Shown piece after piece: positions 5,345 to 28,804 of a DNA stretch of 64,000 nucleotides. Within the stretch, counting starts at the first letter, position 1, and each line of letters opens with the position of its first letter. Origin of the DNA: Phaffia rhodozyma (Eukaryota; Basidiomycota; Tremellomycetes; Cystofilobasidiales; Mrakiaceae); NCBI GenBank assembly GCA_014706385.1, contig JACGZH010000011.1:310001-374000 (forward strand), in the 5' to 3' direction. A model generated the notes under the pieces. It did not search any database and was not told where the DNA came from. It saw only the letters and a program-made list of their open reading frames with translations. A program made the position numbers and the translations under genes.

Positions 5345-8300
5345 TCAAGCAGACATGACAGCGTAGGCAGAAGCGGACACAGAGTCATGCGAGATAGACA
5401 CCTTGATGTTCTTAGCTCCAAGCGTCTTCTGAAGCTCGGTAGAGAGCTCGACAACGGGTCCAGTAGAGGTAGCCTTGACCTCAATGTCCTTCAATGAAGC
5501 ACCGGCTCCCTTGGACTCGACACCGAGAGCCTTGAAGACGGCCTCTTTGGCGGCCCATCGTCCAGCGAACGAAGCCTGAGCAGAAGGCTGCTTCTTGCAG
5601 TACGAGATCTCCTCATCGGTGAAGTTTCGGGAGACAAAGGTCTCGTTCCAGTAAGGGAACTCCGTGATCAACTCAGTATCCACACCAACACCAGCGACCG
5701 CCGGGTTCTTAAGAGCGAGCTGCAAAGCGGCGTGCTCGGCCGGCTTGGGAAGACCGGTAGGAAGCTTGGAGGCAAACATGTACTCGTTCTTCTTGTCCAA
5801 CGATGTTCGAACGGACGGGTTGAGAAGAACAGTCATCTCCTGCTCGGGAGTGTACGGCGGGGCCTCCTTGATTCGGACCAAAGAGTTGGTGATGAGAGCC
5901 TCGGAGTTGTACAAGTAGCTCTTTTGGGATCGAGGAGCTCGCCTGGCAACGTACTGCTCGTACTCAGCCGGGTCCAAAGCAGCAAACAAGTGTCGAGGAT
6001 GCAAGATCAAGCAGTCTCCACCGACCTGTCCGAAACCGAATGAGGTTACCATAGCAGCCTGTAGAGAGACATGCTGGATGGGCTTGGAGGGGAAGAACAA
6101 GTGAGTGTTCTTCTTGAGCTCGGCAGCAATGTTGTCGGCGTTCCAGTTGGGAGGGATAAGAGCCGATTGGAGGACCTGGAAGAGTCCGTTGATTTGCCAG
6201 GCAGCGGCGGCTCCCTTGGGGTGACCAGTAAGAGACTTCTGAGCGATAACAGGAACGGCGTTACCCTTGGTTCGACCCAAGTGCTTGAAGATATCCTGGT
6301 AGACACCAGTCTCGTTCTTGTCGTTAGCCTTGGTGGAAGTTCCGTGGATGGAAATGACGTTGACAGCATCGATATCCAAGTTCCAAACGGCAAGAGCTCG
6401 TCGGAGAGGAGCAACCGAAGGGTCCTGTCCGTCCAACATACCGTACTGTCCGAGAGCAGCCTTCTCCTGTCGAGCGGCTTCCGCCTCGATGAACGAAATC
6501 TTCTCCTGAACATCGAAGTCGGATGATCCAGCCTCGATCTCGAGCTTGAGAAGCTCGTGCTCGTTGTCGAGCCACTGGGCAATCTGCTTTCGTCGGAAAG
6601 CAAGCTGTCGAGCTCTGTACTTGATGTCGAGGAAAGGTGCTGGGGAGGGACCAGAGATCTCTCGGGCAGCAGAAAGAACACCTCGACCGGGAGCAGGAAT
6701 GGATCGTCCAGCCTTATCGGTGTGGGTAGAAGTGTAGGCGATGATACCCTGGATAGGGGCACCCATCTCGAGAGCAGTCTTGGCGCTCATGACAACCTGG
6801 ATACCAGCTCCCTGAGACTCCATGAAACCATCTCGAGTAGAGGTGGTAGGTCGGGAGAACTCGGTGGGCTCTCGACCGTTCTTGTACTCGGTCTCGGTGT
6901 TCGAGGTAGCCTGCATGTTGGCGAACTCGTAAGAACCCTCCTCGGAGAAATCGTCGAATCCTCCAGCAAGCATGACCTTGGCCTTGCCAGACAAGATGGA
7001 GTCGCAGGCGATCTCAATAGACTGCAAGGCGGTGGCGCAAGCTCCGACGGGGATCTTGACAGGTCCACTGGCAGAGAGAAGCAACAAGTTGACCCAACCG
7101 GCAACGGTGTTGATGAAGCTGAATATTCAAGTAAAGTGTAATTTTGTTAGTGTGAATCAGGATGCCGACAAGGACCTGAATTTACTCACGTCTCCTGAAG
7201 AATGTCCTTCTGAACGTCCTTCTCCTCCTTTCGGTCTTTGAACATAGCACTGATGGATCGGATACCTCCCATACCGGAACCGATGGCGGTTCCGACCTCG
7301 GATGGGTGAACATACTTGTAAAGCTCGTAAGGATCGGTGACTCCAGACATGACCAAAGCCTCCATTGTGGCGACCAAAGCCCAAAGAGCAGTTCGGTCGG
7401 TCTGAGCAATGATATCGTCAGGAAGACCGTATCGGCCGGCGTGCCAGCCAGTAGGGAGTTGACCGGCGACCAATCGGTTGAACTGAACCGACTTGGGGAC
7501 CAAGATTCTGGCTCCTCGCTTGAACTTGACAAACCACTCTCCGGATTCTCGGGCCCAGGTATCACAGTTGTCGCCCTGCTCTCGCTTGAACTTCTCGGCA
7601 TCCTCAGGAGAACACTCAAGGGGCTCAAGATCATGGTTGAGCTGGACTTCCTGGTAGAAGGCCTTCTTCTTGGGATCGTAACCGTTGAACAGCTCGGGCT
7701 CTGTAAACAAGGTAAAGTAAGTTGATCAGTCAATTTGAGCCGTCGTTGATCCACAAACTCATTTGCTAGGAAAAAGCTAGAGATGAGGTATACTGACCGA
7801 TGAGTCGAATACCAGCGTGCTCCAAGATGTCCTTCTCGTACTTGGCTCGAACATCCTTGTCATCGACGGGTTCCTCAGTCTTAGCATCGACCCAACCGAC
7901 GTAAGCCTTTCCACTCTTGAGTCGACCGTCGAAGTGCTTGATGAAACCCATGATCCACGACATCTCGATGAGACCCTCGATGGTGAATTCTCCTCGAGCC
8001 TCCATCTCCCATCGGGTCCTGGAAGAACCCCAAGGTCCGACCTCAGCGAAACCGGTGACGACTATGACCTTATCGAGGTCGACCATACCTCTGCAGGCGT
8101 TGAGCTTCTCGAGAGTGTTGATGTCCTCCAACTTGGGGAAGTCGTACTTGAAGTTGGCTCGAGGCGCGATCGGGATCTTGTGGTGAATGCCTTCGGCGTC
8201 GACTCCGTTGATAACCTTGAAATCAGCAGAGTTGTCGATCGCAACGGCTCGTCGGAGATCTCCAGTAAGCTTGAGTTGGGTTCGGATCTTGGTGGTAGTC

Positions 8301-11300
8301 TCGGCAAGATCAGGCAATCGGTCCATACCACCGTTCAAGTCAGCCCAGACAGGCTCGATCTGAGTGATGTCGAACAAGAGAGGGTGCATCAAACCAAGAA
8401 TGTTGAAGGCCATCTCCTTGGCAGAGAAAGTTCGGACACCGAGCTTCTCCAGACCCTCGGCCACAGTGTTAGTGGGACCCATGAGTCCGGTTCCTCGAGT
8501 CCAACCAATGACAGCTCCGGCAAGACAGAGGTACTCTCCCCAAGACTCAGACTGCCATCGCTCGAACAAGGTCTCAAGAGAGATCTTGGACTCGGCGTAA
8601 AGACCGTCGTTACCGAAAGTTCCGTGGTTGGGGGAAAGAGGAAGGATGACCTGAGTTGGTCGAGTGACGAAGTGTCGAGCAGCCTTCTTCTGCTTGACGG
8701 CTCCGAGGAGTCGCAAGAGATTGACAAGCATGACTCGGTGAGCGAGCTCGGATCGGTCGTCCAGTCCGTCGATCTCTCGACCGTTCTCGGGAACGGCGGC
8801 GAAAGGAACGATGTAGTCCAAATCCAAAGCCAAGGTCGAGTAGATGTAGTCGACCAAAGCCTCGACGTCCTGCTTGGAACCCTGGTTGAAGGGAACGACG
8901 GTGAGGGCAGATCCTCGGCTTCCGAACTCCTGGAAGATTGTCTGGTAGTACTCGACAGTCTTTCGGCTGTATCGGGAGGTGGTAACAACGACGTTCGCTC
9001 CTCCAGCAAGCAATCCCTTAAGGATTTCGACTCCGATAGAGCCCTTTCCGACGCCAGTCAAGAGGGCGTTCTTTCCCTTGAAGCTGTAGATTTTGAGGGG
9101 CAAGTGACGTCAGAAGAGAAAAGATAGCGTTGAAGAGAAAATTGGAAAAAATAACGAACGTAGTTCCAGAAGTAGCAATTTCGGTCAAAACATCCAAGTA
9201 GACCTCGGTCAACTTGGAAGAGTACTGCCAAGCGGTTCCGACCTTTCTCTTCAAGTGCAGCAAAGGAAGCTTGTCGGAGATCTGACCGACAGCCATCGAC
9301 TCGGAGATCGCCGCGGGTCGCATGAACTGAGAGGATGATCGTCTGGATCGGCCAGCGGTTCGAGTGAGTCGAGACTCATTTCGAGCCAAGTTCTTAACGA
9401 CCTCGCCGTAAAGAGACTTGATGGCGGCCTTGTTACCTCGGGAGATTTGGGGCTGAGCCTTGACAAGCTTGTAGAGCTTTGAGACGTCGTTCTGGACCTT
9501 CTCCAAGTTGACGTTCTGGTTGGGAGAGATCTTTCCACCCTGGGCCATCTCCTTGACATAAGCTTCGAGCTTCCTGACGTTCTCTCGAACGACCTCGGAA
9601 TAGACGATGTCTCCCTTGGCGCTGACCTCGGTGTGAGGGGCGGTGGGGAAGGTCACGTCTTTGTAGACAGGGTCCTCCTTGAGGGCCTCCCTGCAGTTGT
9701 CCAAGAGCTGCTGTCCGAATTCTTTGGCCAGCTTGAAAGTCTCCCCCTGCTCAGAAACACACTGGTCGACGTGGTATTGCATGTAGTCGATAAGAGTGGG
9801 GTCGGCTCGATTCATGATAGCGATGCATCGCGAGGTGATCTCTCGATCGACACCGGTCAACCTTCCAAAGATGATATCGTACCACATGATCAGAGCGTCC
9901 TGTCTGACCCAGTTCCAGTGAGAATCGAAGTGTCTTGCCTTGGCTGGCTCGAAAACGGGCTGGATACCCTTGATGTAGTCGTCTCCGTGCTCCCGATCTA
10001 TGCTGTCCAACTTGTCCTGAAGGGCTTGGGCGTTGGCCTTCTCCTGCTCGTAGAGTCGGTGACCGGCCCTGGGGTCCTGCTTGAGCTTTCGCATGTAAAG
10101 GTCAACGTGCTGAGCGTGGAACTCTTCTTGCTCGGCCTGGAACTTGATGAACTCTTCCGAGTTGATGACGGCTCCACCACCTCCTCCCCCCCCTCCTCCT
10201 CCTCCTCCGCCACCGGAAGAAAGAGAGATGCCAGCCTGCTGAGCATACACGGCAACCACAGAATCCAACCAAGCCTTGGCCTCGGCCTCAGAGCTCAATC
10301 GCTTCGGGGGCTCCATGGTGACTCCGAGAAGCAAGGCGCCATCGGTTCGGAACGGACCAAGACCCCAAGTCTTGGAAAGATGTCCTTTAGCAGAAGAAAG
10401 GTTGAAACCTCCAGGCATCTTTCCTCCGATCATTCGGGAGACCAAAGCGCTAGTGCACTTGCCCAAAGTACCGGCGTAACCGAAGTTAAGTGCAGCTCCA
10501 AGCTCGTCCAAGGGAAGCTCCTCTCCCTTCTCGGGAGCCGAACCGAACTCAAGCTGAAGATCCGACACGATCTCGTTCTGGAGGGTAGACTTTCCACCGA
10601 CAAGGTCTTTGACCGTCTTGGAGAGCGGGATCTCGGCCACCTGCTTCTTGAGCTTCTGGGCGATGATGACTCGGACGGTGTCCACGGCCTTGAGCGGCTC
10701 ATCAGGGATCTCAGCAGCGGGACCGGCCGAAGCTTGAGGGGAGGGAGGGGCAGCGGCAGCGGCAGGAGCGGCTGACGCAGGAGCCGAAGACGGAGCAGAA
10801 GCCGCAGCAGGAGCGGCATCAGCAGAGGCAGCTTCCGGCTCGGCATCTTCGAACTGGTAGTAAACCTCCTTCTGGTTCTTGGCGTGGGCGAGAATAGTTC
10901 GAGTTCGGGAGATGGGTCCATCCTTGGCGGCATACTTGAGAGCGAGCGTTCGGGAAGCCATTCCAGTCAATGTTGGAGAAGGACCGACCTCAACCATTCG
11001 CTCGAATTGATAGTAATCAAACAAGAGATCCTGAGTCTCGATCCATCGAACGGGACTGGAGTGGGAAACATATGGGTCAATCAAATATATCCGCGAGACA
11101 TGGGATATGAACGGGGCAAGCAAAGACTCACGAAGCAAACTGGTAGGCGAGAAGCTCGATGAGGATGTTGTAGGCAAGTCGTTGACGATGTTCCGAAGCG
11201 TCCCAATCGGCGTCAGGCGTCGTGCGGATTAACTTCTCCATTCGGGGAGAGCCTGTAAATTGATGAGTGTTTCTTCAGTCATGATGCTGACAACAAGGCG

Positions 11301-12164
11301 TATTGTATGGGCATGTTAAGCACTTACCAGTCTGGTCAAGAATCTTCTGCGCGTAGGCTTTGGACACCTGGAATGGGTCAGCGATCAAGTTAGGAATATA
11401 CAATCCGACGAGAAGATCGGGGTTCAAGTCGGCGGCCGACACCTTCTTAGAAAGGTACTTGAGGAAGGGCTGCACTCCAGACCAGAGGTACTTGGAGTGG
11501 AAGGGAACGTCGATACCAGGAAGAGGAATGGTGGCTATAGGTATAGATCACAACGGAGCGAAACGATCATTAAACGAATCTCGGCAGAGGAAAGAGACTG
11601 TCAAGTGGGAAGAGCGCGTACCAAATCCTCGCTCGAGGATCACTGAACCATCCTCCTTAGCCTTGGCTTGAGCAGTTCCAAGAGCGTGATCGATGATTTG
11701 GTTAAGCTGTAAGAAAGATACAGCGTGGTCAGTGACTTGGTCAACAGACATGGTCCGAGAACTGACTGAGATGACTACTGACCTTTGTGCGAAGCTGCTC
11801 GACTGAGAGCTCGGCCTGAAATTTCTTCATGTCAATCTTCTGAACCTTGATGACGTTCAACACGTTTGTTAATGTGGCCAGGGCCATGTTCTCTCCGGCG
11901 GCGACGTACTGAGTACCTGTTGACAAACAAGAACATGGTCCAATGGTATGTGAGCCATATGCGCTCAAAACTTCCGATGGATTCCCACCCTGTTTTCTCC
12001 GAAACAGGTGAATCCAGTAGGACACACACAAAACAACAAAACAAAAAGGACGACCGACCTTCGACGTTGAAGTTGACGAGTTCGAGCAGCATGCCCGTCC
12101 TATCTGCGATCGAAGCGACAAGCTCTCGGAGAAGAGTCTCCTTTCGGGCGAGTTCTGCGGCCAT
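5345..12164 (-). CDS. FAS2: Fatty acid synthase alpha subunit, extended at the N-terminus into the MPT domain
   Basis: Alpha chain of the cytosolic fungal type I fatty acid synthase, about 2,040 residues in nine exons (introns include 9085-9159). Order: C-terminal half of malonyl/palmitoyl transferase (1-290, with VPFHS near 124); Ala/Pro linker (about 295-345); one ACP with the pantetheine serine in [12 protein letters not shown] (about 377); a Gly run (about 500-514); ketoreductase ([10 protein letters not shown] near 857); ketosynthase with active-site Cys in [11 protein letters not shown] (about 1476); C-terminal phosphopantetheinyl transferase (GVGVDTEL and [13 protein letters not shown]). 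Yeast Fas2 (1,887 residues) begins only at the segment here reading [20 protein letters not shown]. The roughly 210 residues before it match the C-terminus of yeast Fas1. The start at 12164 is favoured because the first exon aligns from its first residues and the next 540 bp separate it from a divergent gene. The beta subunit gene is not in this window. Only one ACP is present, unlike the tandem ACPs known in Rhodotorula/Rhodosporidium. Confidence 0.95.
10173..10214 (-). repeat. Glycine homopolymer-encoding tract in FAS2
   Basis: About 14-15 consecutive glycine codons (GGN, mostly GGA and GGG) encode a flexible linker just after the ACP region (ISLSS before, AVINSEEF after). The tract is in frame with both flanks, so it is part of the protein. 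It is a likely site of length variation. Confidence 0.9.
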
Positions 12165-12704
12165 GGTGATGAAGGACTGAAGTAGGAATTAGGAGTGTGA
12201 GAGATGGAGAGAGAAAGAGATGTGTTTATGTATAGATCGAGAAGCCCAAAAGAAGAGAAAGAGGAAGGAGAAAAGCGAACGACCGAAAGCACGAAGAGAT
12301 GAAGTTAGGAGGAAGATAAGAAACCAAGGACACAAAGATCGAAGGTGGATGTTGGGGGGATTAAAAGAAGGATGGTAAACGTGAGGACGGCAAGTTCAAG
12401 ATGTTTAATCTCTTCGCGCTTTGGCCGCTTTTTTTTCTGTTGGGGAGACACCCGGTGGGATCCCCCAGCGGTTGAGGGTGAGTAACCGTGATGGGGAGGG
12501 TGATTCCGAGAATGTTACATGCCACGTGTGAGCTGTGTTGGGCTGTAACCATTGACCGCCACATACTCTTAATTCTTTCTTTACTCTTAATTTCGATTTC
12601 TTTCTGATGGCATTCTGTCTTTCTTTTTGAAAGAGATCAACCGTGTGTCGGTCTGTGTAGATTCTTTCTTCTTTCTCTCCAGTTTGGACTAGACGCTCGG
12701 ATAG
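12165..12704. promoter_or_regulatory. Shared 540-bp divergent promoter region of FAS2 and the RNB exonuclease gene
   Basis: The two start codons face away from each other, so both promoters must lie here or overlap upstream exons. The FAS2 side is rich in CT tracts on the minus strand, typical of a fungal 5' UTR. I identify no specific operator with confidence. Confidence 0.6.
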
Positions 12705-15700
12705 ATGCTCGTCAAGCCCACCTCGAGAGCGCTCAGGACGTTGCTGGAAAGACCGTCGATCGTTTCCAGTCGTCTCGTTCCTTCTCGCGCTTTCACCTCC
12801 ACTCCTATCCGTTCTCGCACTCAGCCCACCTCTCGCTCTGAACACCAATCTGGAAAGTTCGTACAGCAGCACAAGCAGTCGCCATCTTCATCTTCATCGT
12901 CATCACCCAAAGTTTTCAAGCAGAAATCACCGTCTGTTCAATCTCAGACCCAAGTGGAGGAACCATGGGCGAATGAAATTTCTTGGGATGACTTCCTTTC
13001 GGACGAAGTCACAAAAGGAAACAAGCAGTATTCCTATCAGAAGTTCGACGACAAGGGCCAGCCAATTGGCGAACCAGTCCTTCATGAGGATGACCGGGTC
13101 ATCTTGTTTGAGAACGGAACGATCGTCGAAACCACCGAGTATGTGCCCAATTACCTTTGCTCACGAGGCTTTCTTGAATCAAATTCTTGGATGGTCTACA
13201 AGCTGACGTGCTGGAGTTGCTCGTTCAAAGTAAAGCAAGCTCAAACTTAGGTGTCGTGCTTGACACCGTCCTCTTCCAGTCTCAAATGAAACTTCGAATC
13301 ATCTCCCCTGAAGGCTCGATCAACTACCTCAGTCCTACACGAGTGACCTTCGCGTTTCAACATAAGCAAGTCAGCCCGAGCTGGGTCGCGCTTTGTGGAC
13401 CTGGGGACGCAGAGACCCGAGCTGACAGGGTCAACTACCGAGTTGGAATCGCCAAGCGAGCTCGGATGGTCCTAAAAGAGACCGAGGGTCACCGTGTCAG
13501 GCTTGATGGAGTGATGGAAGGAGCATGGGAGCGACTTAGGCCGAAGGACCAGGGCATGGAAGGATCCAGGCGGCTCATGACGACTAAAGAAATCGTTAGA
13601 GAAGTCATGCGAGACCACCCGGGAGGGCATAAGGAAGACCTTGAAGTCATGACCTATGCTGTCCATAGATTCCTGATGACCTGTCCCGAAAGGTTCATTT
13701 GTGAGGAATCCGGACAGTGGAAGAGTCTGCGGTGGTGGCTCAGGAGTGCAGAAGAGGTACAGGAAATGGAGAAAACCAAGCAGTGGGCTCATACCAAGTG
13801 GGTCTCTGATTCTTCTTTTCGTGTTGCGCTTGGTGAAAATTACCTCATTCACTGAATTGATTAACCGTCCGACATCAACAGTGACCCAAGAATCTCTGAA
13901 TTTGTTTCAAAATGTGTCACCTTGATCGATCATTCTCGACCTGCCTTATTTGCCATGCCCCCTGCTCCCGAAGAACACGTCCTTCCGAGTTTTCTACCCC
14001 AAAACACATCGCTTCCAACATTTTCTCCCTCAGATCTCCACCTTATCTCTCATATCCAAAAGTCTCTCTCAATCTCGACCAAGCAGATTGACCCTTTCGC
14101 ATCCACAGTACCTCTCCTGTTGAAGCAGACCGAGCGATATGGTGAGATCATCACAAAACACACGATCCGTCAATTCCTCGTCGAGATCGGCGTTCGAACC
14201 GAATGGGATGATCTTGCGGCCCTAAGTAGTAGTTTAGAGGTTGCCAAAGAACTCGGGTTGGGTAAAGGAGAGAAGAGACCATTCAAGCTAGAGATCGATG
14301 ATGGGTCTGATGATCTAATCGAGCAAGGCATGATGCCTGGACCTGGAGAAGATTCATTAGCGAACGTAGGAAGAAGTTCTCCCATACAGCTTTTGACAGA
14401 AGAGAAGCATGCTTCTTCCACATCTACACCCAAACCCGCAGCCATGGCCACAAACGCACCGACTCCAGCATCCCACCCAGCTACCGTCTCTCCGACTTCT
14501 CGATCCTCTTCAGTGCCGCTCGCCGCCCATAAATCCAATACACTGCTTGGTCCGGATGAGCTGTACCCTACTGATCCAATGTCAAACCTGCGTCATGATT
14601 TCGGTGATCTGCCCGTATTCGTTATCGATGACCCTAACGCATTCGAACTCGATGATGGAGTCTCGATCGAGCCTTCCCGGCCCGGATTTTGTTGGATTCA
14701 CGTTCACATTGCCGATCCAACATCTATCCTTCACCCAAATCATCGTCTATCGAAGGCTGCTGAACGGATGGGTCAGACCCTTTATCTTCCACAAGGTAAC
14801 AGGTCTCTTCTACCTGATGATGTCTCCGTCGACAGATTCAGTTTGGGAGGTCAAGGGCTCGATCCGATCAACGGCCAGCCAGCTTTGACCTTTTCGGCTG
14901 AAGTGGACGAGAAGATGGGTGATATAGTGAACTACAAGGTCCGAGCAAGTACCATCCGGAACATCAAGGTGACAAGCTACCAGGCGGTCAACGAGGTATT
15001 CCGATGTGAAACCTCGCCGATCGCATTCCCTCTTGGGTTGACGTACATTCGACCCAAACTAAAAAAGCCTAAGCAGGCAGATCCTGCTTGGTTCCCGGAC
15101 TTGAACTACCTATACAGAGTCTCGGAATCTATCGCAATTCGACGTCTCAAGAAGGGTGGAATCAGTTGGTCCCTCTCGGACTTTAGCGTCGCTTTAAACC
15201 CGTCCCCGCCGCCGTCTCTGCCTTTGGATGCTGAGCCCGTCCCAAAGTTCACCTCTGGCTCGCCCGTGGTGGAGTATATCGTTCACCCTCAACGAAAACT
15301 GGCAAACGATCGAGCCCAGCTGATCGTTCACTCATGCATGACCTTAGCCGGTAACGTCGCTGGTCGGTTCTTTGCCGACAGAAATCTTCCCGCGCCGTAC
15401 CGAACGAGTCCGTCTCCTCGTGCGGCCCAACAGTCAGCATTGGAGGAGCTTCTCGAGAAACGAAAGTCCATCACCGGCGAGGTCGATCCTTACGATGTAG
15501 CTAGACTCGGAGTGGTGTTTGTAGCCGGTCGATTGTCGATGAGGCCGGAAAGCCATTGGATGATGGGTATCGAGGGTGATGACGGAGGCTACGTCCGAGT
15601 GACGTCCCCCCTTCGTCGATACACCGATATTCTCGCTCATTGGCAAATCAAGAACGCTCTCTTGCACGAAGCCAGTCGGTTCAGTGTTGGTCCGTCTTCG

Positions 15701-16153
15701 GTCAAGAAAGGAGTTCTCTGGAACATTGCCGAGATGGAGGAGATGGCTTCTTCAGTCGACCTCACGGTTGCCTTAGGAACTTCCGTTCAACGTGAATCAA
15801 AAGCTTTCTGGGGGACGTATGCGCTTGAGCGATATGCTCGTCGCGAAGACCCGTTGCCGAACTTGTCCGAGAATTTTCCGCCACCGCAAAAGACGGCCTT
15901 CAGTCCATCCCCTAGCCCAACGATGGCTAGGCTAGGTCCGTTCGAAGCCTCGTTCGTTCTTCAACCTTCCCAGGTGACATATGAGGATGCCGGCACGGCC
16001 AAGGTAACGGTGATGATTCCTGCTCTGGGATTACAGCTTGTGGCTTACCATCCGGTCACAAAGATGTACGAGGCTGGAGAACGAGTCTCGGTCTTGCTCG
16101 ATAGGTTTTTGTTAGGGCCGCGCTCTTCTGTCACGGGAACGATTGTCGAGTGA
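12705..16153 (+). CDS. DSS1: Mitochondrial RNB-family 3'-5' exoribonuclease (Dss1/CYT-4-like)
   Basis: RNase II/RNB-domain protein of about 1,090 residues. In fungi Dss1, with the Suv3 helicase, forms the mitochondrial degradosome that degrades and trims mitochondrial RNA. The N-terminus (MLVKPTSRALRTLLERPSIV, then PSRAFTSTP) is basic and lacks acidic residues early, as in a mitochondrial presequence. The RNB signature VIDDPNAFELDDGVSIE lies near 14610-14660, with the acidic residues expected to bind magnesium. Downstream are HVHIADPTSILHP, YLPQGNRSLLPDDVS, and RVTSPLRRYTDILAHWQI near 15595-15650, the classic RNB C-terminal motif. Two introns: 13139-13230 (canonical gtatgt donor, ctgac branch site) and 13798-13881. 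The stop is at 16151-16153. A Ser/Thr/Pro-rich stretch (about 14400-14520) precedes the catalytic domain. It is divergent from FAS2 and tail-to-tail with BET3. Confidence 0.93.
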
Positions 16154-26583: not shown

Positions 26584-28804
26584 TCAAGTCGACTCGAGCG
26601 GTCCATCCTGACAAACGATTCCAAGACCGTCCACGACGGTCGAATTCAGTTGGGATGGATCACAGATTACAGAGGTCGTCTTCCGGTTGGTTGCGACAAA
26701 GTTGCCGACGTTCTCGAACGTTAGACCAGAGACGAGTTTGTACTTGTCAAGATCCAGAATGACCACTTGGGAACCATCGGCACCTTCGACATAGTTCCAA
26801 CATGGATCAGTCACGCAAGTCGCATCACTCAACTTCGGAGCGAAACTGTCGATATCTCCCCAGAAGTTCTTGAAGGTAAAGTCGATAATTTCGGTGGATG
26901 AGTTTCCAGGATCAGTCGGCGGACCGACCTGTTGATCGTAATAAGAAGTTGTGATGAAGATCGGTTGAATGACTTGTCTGGCTTCGATGTTTTCCCAAGT
27001 GATGTTCTTGGCGTAACCTCTTCCTCCGACCCAACTCTTGAATCGAGCGCCGTACGCGCTCTTTTCAATCTTGACGTCTTTGATGAGGACACCATCTACG
27101 GTAGACACCGCACCTCCACTTCCCAGAGAGCCAATCGAGAGTCCATGAGTACCTCGGCAGAATGCGCTGTAAGGAAAGGGAATAGAAGAGATAAGCGCAT
27201 AAACAAGGGGTTCAAGTTCGGTCGCAAACAGTACGAATAGAGAAAGACATACTCTCGGAAGACGATGTTGGAGGAACCTGATGCAATAGCCACACACTAC
27301 GCGTTTCATACAGTATTCAATCATCAGCCTGAATGAACGAAGGCGGACATTTAAAGGAAGAGATATGACTGACATCATCGCCACCATATACGACACTGTT
27401 CTCGATTAAGACATCCTCGGCACCGATGTTGAATCCATCGGTATTGAAAGGATACCTGAAGAGACGTTATGAGCGTGATGAGATTTCTTTCAAGAACGAG
27501 AGAAAACTGAGAAAATGTGCCTTGGGCTTACCCTGTACTATTGGAGACTGCATATGTAAAGGTGTTGTTCTATTAAAAGTAACAAGGCATCATTTGAGAA
27601 GCAAATAAGACATAGGAGTCAGCGCAGAGAATAGTCGAATGAGATTAGGCATCTGAGAGCTTATACCACTAACCACATAGTTTTGGGAACCCAGCAGTTT
27701 CACGTTCCAAGCGATGTTGTTGTAAATCTTTAAATCCAGAAGCGCACCACTTTTGACATCGAATGTCATCGTCTGCGGTCTGTTGGCAGATAAAGCTGAG
27801 TTTGTGTAGTTGACGGATTCAATATCCCACCACTGATTTGTAAGAGGTACACAGATCAGTCATCAACACGGATCTAACCACAAGGAACTGTTTGCGTCTG
27901 AGTGAAGAAAGAGAACGAGAGAAGAAAAGCAGTCTTACCTGTTGACCGTGACAATCAAGCCAGCCAGAACCAGAGTCTTTTGATCCAGCGATCGTCACGT
28001 TCTCGCCGGAAAACTGCATGTAAGCCTTCCCGTATTTCTATATATGAAGAGTGAAGACAGGCGCGGCAGAGAAAGTCGGAGGTTAGAAAGAGGAGATTTT
28101 CGAACGTGGTGTTCGGATTGAGAGGTGACGCAAGGACATACAGTACTAGCCGTGATGTTTGCGACTTGAGACTGGATGAGCGTTCGGTTTTCCGCTGTGA
28201 GAACGATGGCGCAGGAGAAACGAGTTCAACGACGAGTGCCTTCTGGATGTCAAGGACGAATTGACACATCGCTCGCAACAGGGATAGAACATACAGAACT
28301 GCAGGTTTCCTTCAATCGAGATCTTCACGTTCGAGAGATTGGCCAGCTGAAAGGGCGAATAAATGTTGTACGTCACGTTCTTGGCGAATACGATCTCGAC
28401 ATCCTGTATTCCACAGCTTGCAACAGTACCCATCAAGTTCGGCGTGTCATCTTTTTCACCACCAGAGTGTGGAACAACTAGTATGATTGGTGGCGAAAGT
28501 TGGACAGGAGGTAGAGGAGGCAAATGAAGAAGATGAGCGTCGGTTTATTTGAGTTGGAGATATAAAACGTACCACATGACATCAAACCCTCTGTTTGGGC
28601 TCCATACTGTAAGTACTGGAGAGTGAGCCAGTCATAAGATTGACTGATTGGATTGGTCTCGTTGTAGTTTCTGGCCTGTAGGGATGAGGAAGATGGGCTG
28701 AAGAGAGAACTATCGGGGATGGCCGAAGCGATGGTGGACTGAGTGCCTGATATGGCAACCAGTACAATGGAGAGGATGGAAGAGTAGACGGCCGGATGTG
28801 TCAT
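26584..28804 (-). CDS. Secreted glycoside hydrolase family 28 pectinase (exo-polygalacturonase-like)
   Basis: GH28 enzymes hydrolyse alpha-galacturonosyl bonds of pectin. The start at 28804 gives a signal peptide (MTHPAVYSSILSIVLVAISG, with likely cleavage after STIASA). The parallel beta-helix motifs are present in order: FNTDGFNIGAEDV (the NTD motif), VYGGDDCVAIASGSSNI (DD motif), RGTHGLSIGSLG (HG motif) and ARFKSWVGGRGYAKNITWE (in place of RIK-T). The RFKSW form resembles the exo-acting branch, so exo-polygalacturonase or galacturan galacturonidase is more likely than an endo-enzyme, but this is inference. Several Asn-x-Ser/Thr sites fit secretion. The gene is split by at least seven short introns. 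The C-terminus reads DGLGIVCQDGPLEST with a stop at 26584. Confidence 0.92.

Follow-up and report, generated by a model that had tools for sequence, protein, structure and literature searches.

Predicted fatty acid synthase of Phaffia rhodozyma is divided inside the malonyl/palmitoyl transferase domain, with the catalytic serine and histidine on different chains

Phaffia rhodozyma, the astaxanthin yeast, whose teleomorph is X. dendrorhous (PMC12446351), belongs to the Mrakiaceae family within the Cystofilobasidiales order of Tremellomycetes. In line with this, a GH32 reading frame of the genome aligns to PDB 5fk7_A along 532 residues without visible differences and to 5ann_A with an equal score along the same residues; 5ANN and 5FIX are structures of the beta-fructofuranosidase of Xanthophyllomyces dendrorhous (PMC6877581). 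The window analyzed here, a stretch of 64,000 nucleotides of its genome, carries on the minus strand a gene for the alpha chain of fatty acid synthase (FAS2) that runs from an ATG at position 12164 to a stop at 5345 and comprises 9 exons encoding an uninterrupted chain of 2039 amino acids (223 kDa). The exon ends of this gene and of its partner FAS1 were chosen manually at GT-AG sites with yeast homology as guide, and both genes were modeled with introns and show zero internal stops. The 5' end of FAS2 is intron-dense with five introns within 1.1 kb, and exons 1 to 5 fill the interval 12164..11132 exactly with 653 coding bases (217.7 codons). Exon 1 (12059..12164; ATG at 12164-12162) encodes residues 1-35 and part of residue 36 and holds the start of the histidine-bearing half of the malonyl/palmitoyl transferase (MPT) domain, which continues, judged by homology to the C-terminus of beta chains, through exon 2 (11783..11916) and exon 3 (11622..11706, with the motif ERGF). 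The VPFHS motif with His121 (codon 11499-11497) lies in exon 4 (11328..11534), while exon 5 (11132..11252) contains the point where an alpha chain of yeast type would begin (FAS2 residue 198 corresponds to yeast residue 4) as well as Gln215 (codon 11142-11140).

Exon 6 (9160..11055) covers the end of the MPT domain, the ACP domain, a poly-Gly run and the FAS_I_H helical domain (alpha 524-725), and it is followed by exon 7 (7798..9083), which has no Pfam match and which we take to be the KR region from its homology to yeast alpha. Exon 8 (7190..7700; alpha 1279-1449) spans the KR-KS interval and runs into KS (PF00109 from residue 1373), and exon 9 (5345..7118) encodes the remaining KS (PF00109, PF02801), PPT (PF01648) and the stop. 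In order, the Pfam domains on alpha are the rear part of Acyl_transf_1, Fas_alpha_ACP, FAS_I_H, ketoacyl-synthase and ACPS, with a single, complete Fas_alpha_ACP stretch (PF18325; alpha 335-496, window 10706-10221, E 3.1e-71). We note that 14 unbroken glycines (alpha 499-512, window 10173-10214) stand shortly behind the ACP domain.

Upstream of FAS2 lies a divergent neighbor on the plus strand (12705-16153) that appears by eye to be one gene and whose frame 13865-16150 encodes an RNB domain of RNase II type; the two genes have an intergenic stretch of 540 bp (12165..12704) in common. Farther along the window, a reading frame of glycoside hydrolase family 28 (polygalacturonase-like) is found at 26587-27405 on the minus strand. 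The FAS2 ATG stands in the context ACCATGG. Nine codons before it, its frame is closed by a stop (window 12191), and the nearest ATG within the 540 bp lies at a distance of 356 nt in another frame.

A PDB search gave matches to 27 distinct sequences (12 beta chains, 9 alpha chains, 5 single-chain type I FAS and 1 acyltransferase-like protein), of which we take the matched two-chain entries to be fungal. Residues 9-186 of FAS2 match residues 1856-2030 of 6u5v_B, a solved beta chain of 2037 residues, with an E-value of 1.3e-47, and 11 of the 12 solved beta chains align from FAS2 residue 9 or 10 to residues 185-188 (the exception, 2pff_B, is matched over 10-78 only). The 9 solved alpha chains, on the other hand, all begin to align no earlier than FAS2 residue 198, with residue 4 of their own, so that FAS2 begins ca. 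194 residues earlier than the listed alpha chains. The proposal in a preliminary description of this DNA that the first five exons encode what is elsewhere the C-terminus of beta thus holds for ca. 190 residues that match solved beta chains of ascomycete type. Its placing of the yeast alpha start, which had been equated with LLAYQFAS (residue 211) only, needs to be moved because yeast residue 1 corresponds to about residue 195 and ca. 16 preceding residues count too.

A search of the 19.77-Mb, 15-contig genome with the PF00698 family located the partner FAS1 at one place on another contig (G000:C2:885214..878665, minus strand), where 9 exons encode a beta chain of 1910 amino acids (208 kDa). 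The predicted alpha chain is thus heavier than beta, whereas in yeast beta is the heavier one. Pfam recognizes on it FAS_N, SAT, Fas1-AflB-like_hel, FAS_meander, the dehydratase-region and MaoC domains and the front part of Acyl_transf_1, with ER being covered by Pfam only via the helical domain. The C-terminus of beta carries the GHSLGEY block followed by MMAINPSRL and ends in SRLPW and a TAG stop, 56 residues past the catalytic serine and before the histidine half. A full MPT domain on FAS1, which had been named beforehand as an observation that would speak against a divided domain, is therefore ruled out, and the expectation that beta would end between the GHSLGEY block and RTGMLLEL was borne out by the FAS1 gene of the same genome. 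Downstream of the FAS1 stop, we observed a T-rich tail and then a convergent reading frame that looks transporter-like by eye, and no remnant of the MPT histidine half was seen there on this contig.

Acyl_transf_1 (PF00698) is cut in two, with beta 1712-1898 covering profile positions 1-137 and alpha 11-179 covering positions 166-317 of 319; the genome search with this family gave the beta half only and missed the alpha half, which is spread over exons but scores 46.8 bits once spliced (cut-off 32.7). The last aligned residue of beta corresponds to yeast beta 1862 (2uv8_G) and alpha residue 10 to yeast beta 1869, positions that flank the seam so that the two pieces abut without overlap, with about five residues more across the seam than in yeast. 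All domains of a fungal type I FAS are accounted for across both chains, KR being assigned without a Pfam match. At the level of the predicted proteins, we regard it as confirmed that FAS is broken within the MPT domain, with the serine half on beta and the histidine half on alpha.

Could the break have been made by the assembly, i.e., could one FAS gene, or a pair with the usual break, have been cut and misplaced? The two halves do come from different contigs (C2 and C3), but beta ends in a proper stop, alpha starts with an ATG behind an in-frame stop, and both ends are located deep inside their contigs with other open reading frames adjoining (beta stop at 878665 of the 2.45-Mb contig C2; alpha start at C3:322164). 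The flanks resemble ordinary gene ends, with the T-rich tail after beta and the 540-bp divergent upstream stretch before alpha, and a second published assembly, of strain CBS 6938 (19.50 Mb, 257 nuclear scaffolds), likewise has FAS1 (XDEN_04566) and FAS2 (XDEN_04041) as separate genes (PMC4393869). An assembly artefact is therefore highly improbable.

Equally little weight falls on the idea that the halves are brought together again in RNA, by trans-splicing or via an overlooked exon, to give a whole MPT domain on one protein. Candidate sites for such a reaction would be GTAGAT, which resembles a donor and lies at the stop of beta, and CCTAATTCCTACTTCAG, which resembles an acceptor and precedes the ATG of alpha by 12 nt. 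Joining them would not keep the frame, as the donor leaves two codon bases over and the acceptor stands in phase 0 of alpha, and we rejected them for this reason. A sequence search of 12165..12704 did not find the serine half, whose presence in upstream FAS2 exons of the RNA had been the other observation named in advance against a divided domain, and on the DNA of the genome it was found nowhere except in FAS1. Whole-genome searches (19.77 Mb, E ≤ 1, best candidates scored) placed each MPT half at one locus only and revealed neither a second FAS nor a second copy of either half, which also argues against trans-splicing. We know of no trans-splicing of such genes in basidiomycetes. Two proteomic reports include a "fatty acid synthase" spot (6604), and the 2011 gels among them spanned 10-100 kDa and are thus silent on full FAS chains.

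By motif, the MPT residues on beta are Gln1718 (oxyanion), Ser1854 (nucleophile) and Arg1880 (carboxylate-binding), while alpha contributes His121 and Gln215, so that the catalytic residues are all present and spread over both chains. Corresponding roles are held in E. coli FabD by Gln11, Ser92, Arg117 and His201 (PMC10054515), and Gln215 corresponds to Gln21 of yeast alpha, to which a place in the MPT catalytic triad has been ascribed (PMC6972935). The preliminary description was right to place the transferase histidine of VPFHS on alpha and the GHSLGEY serine on a separate beta chain and to envisage a site built from two polypeptides, but the latter is not new in itself since yeast already has Gln21 on alpha. 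The novelty lies in the separation of the serine and the histidine onto different chains.

When aligned to FabD, the seam falls after FabD residue 131 in both modes run, in a region where the alignment is loose, and by eye GAMAAIIGL of FabD fits MMAINPSRL better, which would move the seam to about 137-139. The ferredoxin-like small subdomain of FabD comprises about residues 124-197. In ferredoxin-like folds, the first strand sits in the middle of the sheet. With these subdomain limits and this strand order, the seam would lie inside the small subdomain for position 131 and for 137-139 alike, and since the first strand is central in such folds, the sheet of alpha would remain without its central strand until beta supplies one.

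Our favored reading, with a probability of roughly 0.87, is a fungal type I FAS of the ordinary kind that is broken inside the MPT domain, at a point ca. 190 residues before the Ascomycota break, whose chains dock by complementation and which has arisen by fission. By sequence, beta carries AT, the helical domain of the ER region, DH and the front half of MPT, and alpha carries the rest of MPT, ACP, KR, KS and PPT. The chains may dock by fragment complementation, with the last strand of beta forming the first strand of the ferredoxin-like subdomain and entering a sheet that otherwise comes from alpha. As a Ser-His site is impossible on either half alone, pairing of the beta C-terminus with the alpha N-terminus would be compulsory for MPT activity and for assembly of the barrel, probably during translation as in yeast, and a free chain would lack transferase activity and probably be unstable. 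Strains with one or the other end trimmed recovered fatty acid synthesis very poorly or not at all (PMC6972935, PMC7300031), and yeast FAS engineered with other break points is reported to still assemble (PMC6972935). The initial handshake seen in yeast would probably work in Phaffia rhodozyma too, with the seam cutting deeper into the fold, and we infer that the dependence of the two subunits on each other for folding is changed.

The regions upstream of the two genes offer no indication of joint control. They share 52 7-mers (against a mean of 40.2 after shuffling, with 5 of 100 shuffles reaching that count), 20 8-mers (13.0; 12 of 100), 5 9-mers (3.5; 28 of 100) and no 10-mers (1.1), and we read these shuffle counts as no support for a co-regulation of FAS1 and FAS2 via common promoter words. 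As plain counts, each upstream stretch contains one CACGTG and two GGTTAC.

The history of the break, for which we draw on published views, would be a fission of a single-chain basidiomycete FAS apart from the fission that gave rise to the Cryptococcus type in the same class. Alternatively, the break may have moved, i.e., the beta C-terminus of an ancestor of Ascomycota type was later transferred onto alpha. That both breaks lie in MPT would fit such a transfer, and the five introns crowded into the 5' end of FAS2 could mean added exons, but two-gene forms are held to derive from single-chain precursors and the related Cryptococcus breaks elsewhere (PMC6972935), so that we consider a moved break improbable. 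Descent by fission remains our preferred account. Priority for the break itself is uncertain because "six gene-topological variations" that are not listed individually in the available text are mentioned in print (PMC7300031). Six variations known by 2020 compared to four named elsewhere (PMC6972935) leave room for the Phaffia break to be real and already among them, which we judge possible but rather unlikely: The genome paper of the species likens its FAS to that of C. neoformans (PMC4393869), and no title or abstract start among the literature matches listed (for instance the best 20 of 193 or the best 15 of 188) describes an MPT break between serine and histidine. A pattern search for the same break in other contigs gave 4 matches in a viral and 47 in a prokaryote collection, neither of which is meant for fungi, and none was confirmed.

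The boldest version of our reading would be a previously undescribed fission that separates serine from histidine, is probably shared across Cystofilobasidiales, makes strand exchange in the ferredoxin-like subdomain the step with which assembly has to begin, and represents the second independent fission in the class; for this combination, we see even odds. If it is confirmed in relatives, Tremellomycetes have split one ancestral gene twice and at different places. Fungal FAS serves as a model for the co-translational assembly of megacomplexes and for the splitting of genes for giant enzymes, and a natural split between serine and histidine allows a direct test of whether break points can lie anywhere or only where the two ends have to co-fold. 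It also suggests a natural break point for the engineering of FAS.

The genome paper compares the FAS of X. dendrorhous to that of C. neoformans and, in its available text, identifies ACP on neither chain (PMC4393869). Our gene models contradict both points, with Cryptococcus being compared by description, and correct the published account of the FAS of this industrial yeast with regard to the position of the break and the presence of ACP. Four topologies have been named for fungal FAS: the single gene, the Ascomycota type (break in MPT), the Tremellomycetes type (break between KR and KS, in a four-helix bundle) and the Rhodosporidium type (break in SBS) (PMC6972935). Judged from its predicted chains, the Phaffia break fits none of them, and the Ascomycota type comes closest to it in domain content.

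The single-chain FAS of Ustilago maydis type shares the domain order and is the likely ancestral form but consists of one polypeptide, and E. coli FabD is an acyltransferase with corresponding residues on one chain, whereas its Phaffia equivalent is cut near 131-139, between serine and histidine. With the Tremellomycetes type of C. neoformans, Phaffia rhodozyma shares the class and the presence of two genes, but the C. neoformans break lies in the KR-KS four-helix bundle (PMC6972935) while the Phaffia alpha chain, set against the Cryptococcus type by description, is continuous from ACP to PPT, with KR-KS unbroken and ACP on alpha. The Rhodosporidium type resembles it in carrying the MPT histidine, ACP, KR, KS and PPT on alpha, but there the break is in the SBS beta-sheet element and beta consists of AT and ER only (PMC6972935), whereas Phaffia beta additionally holds the DH domains and the serine half of MPT. 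Furthermore, a single Fas_alpha_ACP stretch is present on FAS2. FAS of the Rhodosporidium type has two ACP domains. Closest is the Ascomycota type as known from S. cerevisiae FAS1/FAS2, where the chains likewise meet inside MPT, the domains are distributed as AT-ER-DH-MPT and ACP-KR-KS-PPT, and the site is common to both chains. Alpha chains of this type begin ca. 20 residues before the catalytic glutamine, while the Phaffia alpha chain has ca. 194 extra N-terminal residues; the S. cerevisiae break lies ca. 190 residues later and leaves serine, arginine and histidine on beta with only glutamine on alpha, whereas in Phaffia rhodozyma the histidine is on alpha.
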